Shown: piece by piece, positions 2,958 through 5,920 of the stretch | Layout of the letters: the number at the start of each line of letters is the position of its first letter | Position numbering within the stretch: position 1 is the stretch's first letter | DNA from: Thiotrichales bacterium | GTDB lineage: Bacteria > Pseudomonadota > Gammaproteobacteria > Thiomicrospirales > Thiomicrospiraceae | Length of the DNA stretch: 39,036 bases | Assembly: GCA_016936535.1 (NCBI GenBank) | Contig: JAFGXP010000004.1 | Location: forward strand, 1 to 39,036 | Reading direction: 5' to 3' | Made by a program: the position numbers and the translations under genes | Notes under the pieces: model-generated | Databases searched by the model: none | What the model was told of the DNA's origin: nothing | The model's input: only the letters and a program-made list of their open reading frames with translations

Positions 2958-4079
2958 ATGGCTTTTATGACTGCCTTGCTCCCGAGCGTTTTTGGATCTA
3001 ACGCTTCCCCAACCGGCTCTATCCCTAACAGCGCCATGCACTTTAGCGTGGCGCCGATGCTGGATTGGACGGACCCTCATTGCCGGCATTTTCATCGTCA
3101 ACTTAGCAAACACGCTTGGCTTTATTCTGAAATGGTCACGACCGGTGCGCTGCTTTATGGCAAGAATCTCCCGCGTTTTTTGCAGCAAGATCCAACCGAC
3201 CATCCGGTCGTGCTTCAACTTGGTGGCAGTGATCCCCATGCTTTAGCGCAATGTGCGGCACTTGCAGCCGAATGGGGCTATTGTGAAGTAAATTTGAATG
3301 TTGGCTGCCCCAGTGATCGGGTGCAAAACAATCAAATTGGGGCTTGTCTAATGGCACATCCGTCGATTGTCGCTGAAGCGGTTGCCGCGATGAAAACCGC
3401 AACTCATCTGCCAATTACAGTGAAATGTCGCTTAGGCATTGATCATCAGAATGAAGGGGAAACTCTCGTAGAATTTGTTTCTGCTTTGGATCACGCCAAG
3501 GTCGATGGAATTATCTTGCACGCTCGTAAAGCTTGGCTGCAAGGCATTTCCCCAAAAGAAAACCGTGAAATTCCGCCTTTACGCTACGAACTGGTTCATC
3601 AAATCAAAGCCGCTTTTGCCCATTTGCCTATCGCCTTAAATGGTGGGATTAAGCAGTTGGAAGAGGGGGTGTCGCACCTTCACCCCTCAACAGACTTACC
3701 GGCGCTAAATGGTTTTATGATGGGACGTGCCATTTATGAAAACCCGTTTATATTAAGCAAGGTCGATTCTCAGTTATATGGCATGCACCCCGCATCGGTC
3801 TGTCGCTTTACGGTGGTTGAGCAACTTTTTCCCTATATCGAGGCGCATTTAGCACAAGGGGGTAAGCTAATGCAAGTTTGCCGACACATGCTTGGTCTAT
3901 TTTATGGGATGCCTGGTGGTCGCTTATGGCGACGACACCTGAGTGAAAAAGGCTTTGGAGAGGGCGCGGGCTTATCGGTTTTGCGCGAAGCCATGCAGTT
4001 GGTGCGTAATGAGCAAGATCGCGCTAGAGAATCGTCCCAGCCATGGTTCGAGCCTCATACGGGCGAAACTACCCCATGA
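2958..4079 (+). CDS. dusA: tRNA-dihydrouridine synthase A
   Basis: FMN enzyme that reduces uridines 20/20a in the tRNA D-loop to dihydrouridine with NADPH. The 373-residue protein has the FSVAPMLDWTD flavin-binding start (about 29-39), the Dus signature NVGCPSDRVQNNQIGACLM with the catalytic cysteine at about residue 117, KCRLG for phosphate binding and the LNGGI barrel strand. The DRVQN variant of the signature and the DWTD motif place it in the DusA branch rather than DusB or DusC. The start is uncertain: ATG at 2958 or 2967, both with poor ribosome sites, or at 3036 right before the conserved core. It overlaps xseA by 4 nt (ATGA), which implies translational coupling. Confidence 0.93.
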   Translation: MAFMTALLPSVFGSNASPTGSIPNSAMHFSVAPMLDWTDPHCRHFHRQLSKHAWLYSEMVTTGALLYGKNLPRFLQQDPTDHPVVLQLGGSDPHALAQCAALAAEWGYCEVNLNVGCPSDRVQNNQIGACLMAHPSIVAEAVAAMKTATHLPITVKCRLGIDHQNEGETLVEFVSALDHAKVDGIILHARKAWLQGISPKENREIPPLRYELVHQIKAAFAHLPIALNGGIKQLEEGVSHLHPSTDLPALNGFMMGRAIYENPFILSKVDSQLYGMHPASVCRFTVVEQLFPYIEAHLAQGGKLMQVCRHMLGLFYGMPGGRLWRRHLSEKGFGEGAGLSVLREAMQLVRNEQDRARESSQPWFEPHTGETTP

Positions 4080-5689
4080 TTTACCTTGACGTTCCCTTCG
4101 CTCAAAAAGAGCAGGCCAAGAAACTCGGCGCGCGATGGGATCCATTACAACGCAAATGGTATGTACCGGAAAATCTCAGTAACAACCTAGCGTCCTTCTC
4201 GCTGTGGCTACCGCCAAGCACAGGGATTGAGCCAATCTCACCCCAAACATACCCAACAATCCCCCAGCATGAACCAGAAACCCAACCCAGCTTGGCCAAA
4301 GGCCAATCTCTGAGCCACTTTCTTCAACGTGTCAGCCAAGTACTTTGGCAGAATTTCCCCGGAGCCCAATGGCTGATTGCCGAACTATCGCACCTTAGCG
4401 AGCGTCGAGGGCATCTTTATCTTGAATTAAGCGAAACCGATGCCCAAGGCAATACGCTTGCCAATGCCCGCGCAGTCATTTGGAAAACTCAAGCGGCGAA
4501 CATCCAACAACAATTCCAGCGCGACACCCAAATGACGCTGAGCGCGGGTCAAAAGCTGCTGATGCTCTGTGAAGTACAATTTCATTCACAATACGGTTTG
4601 TCGTTGGTGGTTCATGAAATCGACAGTCGTTTTAGCCTTGGAGAGTTAGAGCAAAAAATCAAACAAATTCGACAAAGATTGCAGCAAGAAGGCTTATACC
4701 GCGCTAATAAACAGCAGGTTCTGCCGACAGACTTCTTCCGGATTGCCGTTGTTGCACCACCCAAAGCCGCTGGATTAGGCGACTTTAAGGTTGATGCCGA
4801 GCAGCTAAGTCAGCATAAACTTTGTGATTTCACCTATTTTTTTAGTAGCTTTCAGGGAGAAAACCTCAAAAAAGAGCTACTGCAGGCACTCAGTCAGGTG
4901 CTTACCGAACACCAAAAACGCCCTTATGACGCCTTAGTGATTATTCGTGGCGGGGGGGCTAAACTTGACCTTCATCAACTTAATGAATATGAAATTGCAG
5001 CTCGTTTAAGCCAAATGCCAATGCCGGTACTCACAGGAATTGGCCACGAACGCGACAGTACCCTGTTGGATGAAGTCGCTCACAGCCGTTTTGATACGCC
5101 AAGCAAAGTCATTCACTTTATTTGGCAACAGATTCAACAACAAGCACAAAATGCAAACCAAAATTGGCATAAAATTCAACAGTATACACAACAAAACCTG
5201 AATTTCTGGCAAAGACACAGTGAGCAAAACTGGCAAACGGTACAACAATACACGCAACAGCATCTCGCGCGGGCACGTCAGCAAACTCAATTGCAGTATC
5301 AGAAGATTCAGCAGGGGGTTCAAAATCAAATAACACAAGAAAATCAAAGGGTTAAATGGTTATATCGTCAAATTATCCCGCTTGCCCAGCAGCAGATGAA
5401 CCAGCAGGAGCAACAAATTGAACATCTGGAAAACACCATCAACCAACACGCATATCATCGGCTGCAACGTAACAAGCAACAGCTGCACGACTGGATGGCG
5501 TTGATTCTAAACTCAGGCCCTAACGTTCAACAAAAACGGGGCTTTGTTATTGTCAGTAACGCCCAGCAACAAACGGTGACCCACTGCACTCAAGCGCAAA
5601 ATGAACCCCAACTATGGTTACACTTTCAAGATGGAGCCTTGGCGGTGCATCCTAATTTATCGAACGCAAAAAAACCATCCGATTCATAG
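4076..5689 (+). CDS. xseA: Exodeoxyribonuclease VII large subunit with N-terminal DUF5710 domain
   Basis: Large, catalytic subunit of exonuclease VII, which degrades single-stranded DNA to short oligonucleotides. The 537 residues contain, in order: a DUF5710-like module (1-about 35; IYLDVPFAQKEQAKKLGARW then RKWYVP), a linker rich in Pro/Thr, an OB-fold nucleic-acid-binding domain (about 75-180), the Exonuc_VII catalytic core (about 185-345) with RGGGAKLDL and GHERDSTLLDEVAH, and a long Gln-rich helical coiled-coil tail (about 350-490). E. coli XseA is about 456 residues; the extra length is the N-terminal module and the Gln-rich helices. The core looks divergent from E. coli (GHERDST rather than GHETDVT). 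The start at 4076 overlaps the dusA stop. xseB follows after 9 nt, which confirms the family. Confidence 0.92.
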   Translation: MIYLDVPFAQKEQAKKLGARWDPLQRKWYVPENLSNNLASFSLWLPPSTGIEPISPQTYPTIPQHEPETQPSLAKGQSLSHFLQRVSQVLWQNFPGAQWLIAELSHLSERRGHLYLELSETDAQGNTLANARAVIWKTQAANIQQQFQRDTQMTLSAGQKLLMLCEVQFHSQYGLSLVVHEIDSRFSLGELEQKIKQIRQRLQQEGLYRANKQQVLPTDFFRIAVVAPPKAAGLGDFKVDAEQLSQHKLCDFTYFFSSFQGENLKKELLQALSQVLTEHQKRPYDALVIIRGGGAKLDLHQLNEYEIAARLSQMPMPVLTGIGHERDSTLLDEVAHSRFDTPSKVIHFIWQQIQQQAQNANQNWHKIQQYTQQNLNFWQRHSEQNWQTVQQYTQQHLARARQQTQLQYQKIQQGVQNQITQENQRVKWLYRQIIPLAQQQMNQQEQQIEHLENTINQHAYHRLQRNKQQLHDWMALILNSGPNVQQKRGFVIVSNAQQQTVTHCTQAQNEPQLWLHFQDGALAVHPNLSNAKKPSDS

Positions 5690-5698
5690 GTACTTAAT

Positions 5699-5920
5699 AT
5701 GACAAACCCCAAGAGCTTCCAAGAGAATTACCAAAAACTACAACAAATCGCCACTCAGCTCGGACACAATCAAGAAGTCGATTTAGATCAACTCATTCCA
5801 TTGGTGGATGAAGCGAGCAAAGCTTACCAAATTTGCAAAGAGCGAATTGAAGCGGTGGAAAAAGCACTTAACCAGCGCTTAGGACAAACACCCGATGCAC
5901 AGGACGAAATCCCACAATAA
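5699..5920 (+). CDS. xseB: Exodeoxyribonuclease VII small subunit
   Basis: 73 residues with the XseB fold: a two-helix coiled coil that packs on the coiled-coil tail of XseA to form the exonuclease VII complex. The pattern SFQENYQKLQQIATQL followed by an acidic DLDQLIPLVDEASKAYQICKERI is typical of the family (E. coli 80 residues). The gene begins 9 nt after the xseA stop, with AGG about 9 nt before the ATG, and is the last gene of the dusA-xseA-xseB unit. Confidence 0.93.
   Translation: MTNPKSFQENYQKLQQIATQLGHNQEVDLDQLIPLVDEASKAYQICKERIEAVEKALNQRLGQTPDAQDEIPQ

Follow-up and report, generated by a model that had tools for sequence, protein, structure and literature searches.

Exonuclease VII (ExoVII) is a metal-independent exonuclease that degrades single-stranded DNA (ssDNA) in both directions, and it is generally regarded as a single housekeeping enzyme without distinct kinds. 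The described systems closest to the locus reported here are the canonical XseA/XseB enzyme of E. coli, the small-subunit variant represented by the model NF045605, and plasmid proteins that carry a DUF5710 domain. The latter include the Rep_3-DUF5710 initiators of Acinetobacter pittii plasmids, described in PMC11233732, where neither XseA nor ExoVII is mentioned. Judged by titles and abstract openings, a literature search returned nothing that describes a DUF5710-ExoVII fusion or a mobile ExoVII. Here, we analyzed a 39,036-nucleotide stretch (the window) of contig JAFGXP010000004.1 (positions 1–39,036, forward strand; assembly GCA_016936535.1) from a Thiotrichales bacterium of the family Thiomicrospiraceae, which we take to be a sulfur oxidizer. 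Its xseA gene encodes the large subunit of a divergent ExoVII branch, with a DUF5710 domain at the N-terminus. On balance, we consider it probable, if only just, that this protein functions as an ExoVII and docks on DNA through its tethered DUF5710; both the docking and the substrate are what we infer.

Domain layout and active site of the window XseA

The xseA gene occupies positions 4076–5689 of the plus strand and encodes 537 amino acid residues, exactly as given in the initial annotation. The protein matched PF02601 with an E value of 2.2e-57 (195 bits, cut-off 35.9; Exonuc_VII_L at residues 209–524) and the NCBIfam model TIGR00237 with 262 bits (cut-off 180). The top fold match of its structure model among solved structures was 8txr, E. 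coli ExoVII(H238A), with an E value of 6.7e-24 and an identity of about 20% over the aligned folds. The N-terminal DUF5710 that had been proposed for this XseA was confirmed by PF18974 (E 1.9e-17), with 63.2 bits against a gathering cut-off of 26.5 and with all 44 profile positions (1–44) covered. This match is not due to chance, as DUF5710 was matched nowhere else in the 2.12 Mb genome. Only one XseA was found in this genome.

The full-length structure model starts with DUF5710 (residues 1–46; positions 4076–4213), followed by a linker of about residues 47–77 (4214–4306) that is predicted to be disordered, with a predicted local distance difference test (pLDDT) score below 50 at residues 49–73. 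When modelled alone, DUF5710 adopted a beta-alpha-beta-beta-alpha fold with pLDDT of 86, and of about 95 within the full-length model. The linker leads to the OB fold (tRNA_anti_2; residues 78–183, positions 4307–4624; PF13742 E 1e-14, 55 bits, cut-off 27), which precedes the catalytic domain. The catalytic region, whose bounds at residues 205–345 (4688–5110) are our own division, is followed by a long, Gln-rich coiled-coil helix (residues 342–479, 5099–5512) and a small C-terminal part. All these features lie on the plus strand. The coiled coil had been described as rich in Gln, and its Gln content is indeed 30.6% (positions 5114–5515). This is the highest value among 42 family proteins (median 18.7%), so the enrichment is a trait of the species and not of the branch.

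The four catalytic residues D236, R291, H324, and D327, located by alignment to 8txr, were invariant in 37 of 37 sequences (alignment A3). Their E. coli counterparts are D155, R205, H238, and D241, of which H238 agrees with the H238A named in the 8txr title. The active site is therefore not degenerate, and a degenerate or dead nuclease was rejected as an explanation. Judged by these residues, the window ExoVII should be catalytically active, and we infer an activity equal to that of E. coli ExoVII. The last catalytic Asp is absent in the long-branch row L183, which lies outside alignment A3. The two variant motifs noted in the initial annotation, RGGGAKLDL (4946–4972; canonical RGGGSIEDLW and like) and GHERDST (5042–5062; canonical GHETDFT and like), are real and occur branch-wide with small changes.

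The start site of xseA was considered separately, as the domain would fall outside XseA if translation started downstream. The xseA ATG at 4076 overlaps the TGA of the upstream gene (ATGA), and such an overlap of the start with a TGA was found in 37 of 49 family rows. An ATG or GTG stood exactly two residues ahead of the DUF5710 motif in 43 of the 49 rows. Domain and nuclease share one frame, and the linker between them is divergent but open. An annotation artefact is therefore rejected, its remaining probability being vanishingly small. The upstream gene is dusA, encoding tRNA dihydrouridine synthase A (2958–4079, plus strand; NF008774, 459 bits), and it directly precedes xseA in 45 of the 49 family rows, with all four exceptions in one genus.

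Conservation of the fusion and history of the branch

The search of the GTDB family Thiomicrospiraceae covered 62 genomes, and the order-level search gave the same 62. DUF5710 was present in 60 of them and XseA over cut-off in 59. In all 59 XseA-bearing genomes, which cover 7 of 7 genera, the DUF5710 and XseA matches fell in one open frame of identical length, and a second XseA over cut-off was found in none of the 62. This family-wide presence rejects the idea of a fusion unique to the source genome. Two genomes of one genus (1.3–1.5 Mb), one of which is rated 95% complete, had neither XseA nor DUF5710, and a third genome had DUF5710 on a 127-residue frame without XseA. A second DUF5710, on a 74-residue open frame, was observed in one family genome (G054:C39:8206-8331). 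Among 42 family proteins, the mean pairwise identity was highest in the catalytic part (0.67), followed by the OB fold (0.604) and DUF5710 (0.585), and it was lower in the coiled coil (0.302) and the linker (0.166). DUF5710 is thus conserved like a functional domain, about as much as the OB fold.

The small subunit is encoded by xseB (5699–5920, plus strand, 73 residues), which begins nine bases past the xseA stop codon. This XseB is of the xseB_Acin_var type, as it scored 95.1 bits with NF045605 (cut-off 40) versus 46.7 bits with the general model TIGR01280. An even sample of the class comprised 321 genomes, of which 297 had xseA, 21 had DUF5710, and 15 had the XseB variant over cut-off. Ten of these 15 genomes had an in-frame DUF5710-XseA, four from the same family as the window and six from five other families. 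The remaining five comprised one genome with the domain in an adjacent frame (G378), one with interrupted copies plus a canonical XseA (G258), and three with branch XseA lacking DUF5710 (G110, G248, and G352). In genome G108, which has the in-frame fusion, xseB lay on a different contig, and the XseB-variant match below cut-off in genome G176 belongs to the long-branch row L183. The variant XseB travels with the branch XseA.

The relationship between the branch and canonical XseA was analyzed with a tree built by a quick method from 75 of 157 non-redundant rows, from which eight open reading frames (ORFs) with fewer than 250 aligned residues were left out. A split with 100% support set the branch XseA apart from the ten canonical XseA included. 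The window XseA did not group with the canonical ones, and its motif also differs from RGGGxxEDLW. All 13 canonical rows had RGGG.[IML]EDLW and GHE.D.T. The branch rows mostly had RGGG[AS]..DL and GIGHERD.T, with RGGG..DL missing in 2 of 144 and GHE.D in 9 of 144. Because these variants occur both with and without DUF5710, they are a trait of the branch and not of the fusion.

A mainly proteobacterial part of the branch (99% support) contained every DUF5710 carrier, and Bacteroidota members without DUF5710, together with the poorly placed L183, sat outside it. Members without the domain also include Acinetobacter, Psychrobacter, and Cysteiniphilum. The initial suggestion of a distinct ExoVII branch thus holds, but not the part by which DUF5710 would define it, since the branch has many domain-less members and the carriers do not form one clade. 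A single clade of DUF5710-bearing XseA was rejected by the approximately unbiased test (p 2.6e-34, on the quick tree), a result that partly restates the nesting of the domain-less Moraxellaceae and Cysteiniphilum-group rows among the carriers.

The presence of DUF5710 on the tree required at least five changes. In this count, L163, L194, and L183 were set aside for cut 5' ends or poor placement, and L209, L208, and L177, in which the domain is split or interrupted, were scored as domain-bearing. The simplest reading of these changes would be one gain and four losses, with the canonical and Bacteroidota XseA outside. The losses on this reading would fall in Moraxellaceae, in Cysteiniphilum with its sister family f50, in a Cellvibrio metagenome-assembled genome (MAG), and in plasmid pND6-1, the exact number being soft because the quick tree has many open or weak forks and long branches (L183 and L213).

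Disrupted forms of the domain were also observed. In Noviherbaspirillum malthae (L177:4282-8130, G388:C178), IS21-type istA/istB genes are inserted in a degenerate DUF5710 stretch and the remaining xseA is open; istB was assigned by Pfam and istA by its look. G258 contains several DUF5710-XseA pieces (L206, L207, and L208), one of them interrupted by a stop just past the domain, besides its canonical XseA. In G378, DUF5710 is encoded on a separate 116-residue frame that overlaps the xseA start in another frame (L209:6341-6688, minus strand). This arrangement may reflect either separate proteins for domain and nuclease or a frameshift in the sequence.

Spread on chromosomes, plasmids, and islands

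When 84,980 species genomes were scanned with alignment A1, at least 581 relatives were obtained, and the 80 best were analyzed further. A DUF5710 profile of our own detected the domain on the XseA frame in 24 of these 80, three of them weak or broken (L108, L115, and L165). The carriers among the best 80 were Thiomicrospiraceae, Burkholderiales, HdN1, Beggiatoa/Thioploca, Fluviicoccus, Methylococcus, a Francisellaceae MAG, the planctomycete Singulisphaera, and a Chitinophaga MAG that is perhaps a binning error. The tree places HdN1 and Singulisphaera within groups of other taxa, as expected from transfer. The question raised in the initial annotation, whether the fusion is confined to one bacterial family, is thus answered in the negative, as it also occurs in other gamma- and betaproteobacteria, in a planctomycete, and on large plasmids. 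In a sample of 349 genomes from the phylum, DUF5710 was found in 22, but none of the 24 newly fetched loci had XseA, and the fusion was seen only in the source genome.

Among 29 chosen branch genomes, 10 also had a full canonical XseA, one had pieces of it, and 18 had branch XseA only, some of these 18 being incomplete MAGs. The ten with a full canonical XseA were nine Burkholderiales and Singulisphaera. Noviherbaspirillum malthae had one canonical and four branch copies. The contig-end XseA pieces of the Cellvibrio MAG had good scores with the general profile and poor ones with the branch profile, and thus look canonical.

XseA relatives were found in 256 plasmid records, in which canonical and branch forms are unsorted. 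The DUF5710-XseA fusion is carried by large Variovorax and Polaromonas plasmids, one of the Variovorax fusions being annotated as two pieces. Among the 40 rows listed, the Pseudomonas and Acinetobacter plasmid matches start at query residue 40 or later, mostly past the domain. On plasmid pPNAP03, xseA-xseB is followed by ssb on the other strand. On pND6-1 of Pseudomonas putida ND6 (L213, 6787–8380), the order is reversed to xseB-xseA, followed by a ParB-type gene. Domain-less branch XseA was also observed on Acinetobacter plasmids (H24–H40) and in Moraxella/Acinetobacter phage records, including Mcat6 (H41). All 22 IMG/VR viral-contig loci (L249–L270) had branch XseA, and the DUF5710 profile search found the domain in none of them.

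The neighborhoods of 13 extra copies in 10 genomes (105 ORFs, 156.6 kb) were compared with those of the canonical xseA that these genomes also contain (128 ORFs, 160.9 kb). ORFs of at least 170 residues, including the XseA ORFs, were taken from a simple gene caller based on length and GC content at third codon positions, and PADLOC matches were accepted at E <= 1e-25. Matches to 87 PADLOC families were found around the extra copies, many of these families being near-duplicate models for the same few proteins, versus three families with three members each around canonical xseA. The Acidovorax copy adjoins matches to TRIP13, HORMA, cyclase, and SAVED effector models, a set that we take to be a type III CBASS. 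The Polaromonas copy adjoins HsdS, AbiD, and LmuA/LmuB matches, and the Caenimonas sedimenti copy adjoins BilD and IetA/IetS matches. Type II methyltransferase models matched near the C. koreensis and Variovorax ginsengisoli copies, with a RecD-type model as well at the latter. Defence matches were thus assigned at 5 of 13 loci (5 of 10 genomes). DrmD (two members), BilA, and type I methyltransferase matches come from the pooled scan and are not traced to a locus. When 20 neighboring ORFs were scanned singly, leaving out loci L202, L175, and L177, 14 had no PADLOC match, including all those from L196, L200, L203, L176, and L178. The window XseA and XseB matched no PADLOC-DB 2.0.0 family at E <= 0.001. 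Part of the extra copies reside in accessory or defence islands, which does not imply a defence function.

Possible role of DUF5710 and comparison with known systems

The proteins on which DUF5710 otherwise occurs bear on its role. Outside ExoVII, ten ORF pieces from nine DUF5710 carriers of the class sample were scanned. Five of these carriers had a Toprim match (two over the Pfam cut-off), three of them with ArdcN and zincin in addition; one more was an RNase_T exonuclease, and some were short proteins without another domain. In this RNase_T exonuclease (L079:1381-2493, minus strand), the DUF5710-like module is a C-terminal tail that scored 23.3 bits against the cut-off of 26.5. The DUF5710 query matched 1142 plasmid records, 924 of which are typed conjugative. 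These records and the Toprim/ArdcN carriers bear out the earlier remark that DUF5710 is usually found on plasmid DNA-processing proteins. Because a common denominator of the carriers is an enzyme that encounters DNA in single-stranded or branched form, docking on DNA is the preferred role.

In the mechanism that we propose, the divergent ExoVII branch (XseA plus XseB) would spread by horizontal transfer, carried by plasmids and accessory islands. DUF5710 would presumably have been acquired at the N-terminus of XseA in the common ancestor of the mainly proteobacterial members. The 46-residue domain would fold independently, and a disordered linker of roughly 30 residues would connect it to the OB fold, which binds ssDNA. 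It could thus serve as an extra DNA-docking module that holds ExoVII on a particular substrate. A candidate substrate is incoming or displaced ssDNA, or a junction of single- and double-stranded DNA, which the ordinary active site would trim. In Thiomicrospiraceae, the branch form probably became the housekeeping ExoVII, mostly beside dusA and with the domain kept. In the Acinetobacter-Psychrobacter-Moraxella Moraxellaceae and in the Cysteiniphilum group, the nuclease would have been kept and the domain lost.

Several observations weigh against DNA docking. DUF5710 was lost or decayed repeatedly, namely in Moraxellaceae, the Cysteiniphilum group, the Cellvibrio MAG, and pND6-1, and it is degenerate in Noviherbaspirillum; it is therefore not needed for ExoVII as such. 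A Foldseek search with DUF5710 listed no convincing match among solved structures (best E 1.5). The same anatomy is also compatible with docking on a protein, such as SSB, the sliding clamp, a relaxase, or a primase, which is the main rival and which we rate as a real but lesser possibility. The long disordered linker resembles a tether, DUF5710 recurs on unrelated conjugative-plasmid enzymes that could share one partner, and ssb lies after xseA-xseB, on the other strand, on pPNAP03. However, no conserved neighbor was seen that could be such a partner, as dusA, the upstream gene in the family, precedes xseA in only 1 of 108 rows from elsewhere. DUF5710 is also named in phage and giant-virus proteins, which makes a shared bacterial partner less likely.

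The mobile DUF5710-ExoVII copies could alternatively serve in anti-phage defence or plasmid counter-defence, the window copy being a domesticated descendant. The excess of PADLOC families around the extra copies and the defence genes individually assigned beside the Acidovorax, Caenimonas sedimenti, Polaromonas, C. koreensis, and Variovorax ginsengisoli copies would fit this role. We nevertheless hold it to be unlikely, as defence genes were assigned at a minority of the loci, the control consisted of housekeeping regions and not of other accessory regions, and the window copy adjoins dusA and xseB. Because the partners vary between loci and neither XseA nor XseB has a match in PADLOC, the co-location may merely reflect the gathering of accessory genes in islands. 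It is highly improbable that DUF5710 is a nearly neutral remnant, left by a fusion on a plasmid and without an important function. The four or more losses on the simplest tree reading would agree with such a remnant, as would the decay in Noviherbaspirillum, where one copy is IS21-type-interrupted and the rest of its xseA is open. The domain is nevertheless kept in every family XseA and is conserved like the OB fold, while the linker is not. A broader proposal, in which a second, mobile kind of ExoVII with DUF5710 as a DNA-structure sensor spread horizontally on plasmids and defence islands, can be put forward only tentatively. Such an XseA-XseB would act on incoming or replicating foreign ssDNA, in defence or in plasmid establishment, and would repeatedly have replaced the housekeeping ExoVII of whole lineages.

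Structural relatives of DUF5710 were sought in several ways. All 22 domains of alignment A2 matched PF18974 at the loose limit used. A profile of these 22 domains against PDB sequences gave 'Ika8' as the best match (E 7.9e-05), made up of short repeated pieces, none of which passed alone. Beyond named DUF5710, the viral fold matches included DNA polymerase III epsilon, an SF2 helicase, and a topoisomerase, all weak (E >= 0.15). Two HARP- or SWI/SNF-named viral matches ranked 33 and 40 of the 50 listed (E 1.5 and 1.8). No HARP was among the solved structures listed by Foldseek and VIA-align, an absence that is itself no evidence, and PF07443 (HARP) matched in 0 of 185 class genomes. A kinship of DUF5710 with HARP, the DNA-binding fold of damage-recognition type in SMARCAL1 and other proteins, was suggested by the sequence pattern and is retained as a lead only.

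The locus points to a deeply separate ExoVII branch with its own small subunit, a plasmid-type domain, carriage on plasmids and islands, and the status of sole XseA in some lineages. Results obtained with E. coli ExoVII may thus not transfer to Acinetobacter, Psychrobacter, or sulfur-oxidizing bacteria. The branch offers a natural test system for the needs of the OB-coiled-coil machine, and the fusion provides an initial entry point to what DUF5710, a widespread domain, does.

Compared with canonical ExoVII (E. coli XseA/XseB, 8txr), the window enzyme shares the OB fold, the D/R/H/D core, the coiled coil, and a small subunit. In contrast, canonical ExoVII has no DUF5710, and its motifs RGGG.[IML]EDLW and GHE.D.T are replaced by RGGGAKLDL and GIGHERDST in the window. 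The window XseB is a clear member of NF045605 (xseB_Acin_var), and the XseA partners of this model fall in the same branch; however, the model covers XseB only, and the Acinetobacter branch XseA lack DUF5710. In the L079 RNase_T protein, a DUF5710-like module became linked to an exonuclease independently, but this protein has another nuclease fold, a C-terminal module, and a score below the Pfam cut-off. The plasmid DUF5710 proteins, namely ArdcN-zincin-Toprim proteins, those annotated as TraC/DNA primase, and Rep_3-DUF5710 (PMC11233732), carry the same Pfam domain on DNA enzymes of mobile elements. Unlike the window protein, they are primase-like, anti-restriction, or replication proteins and not ExoVII.

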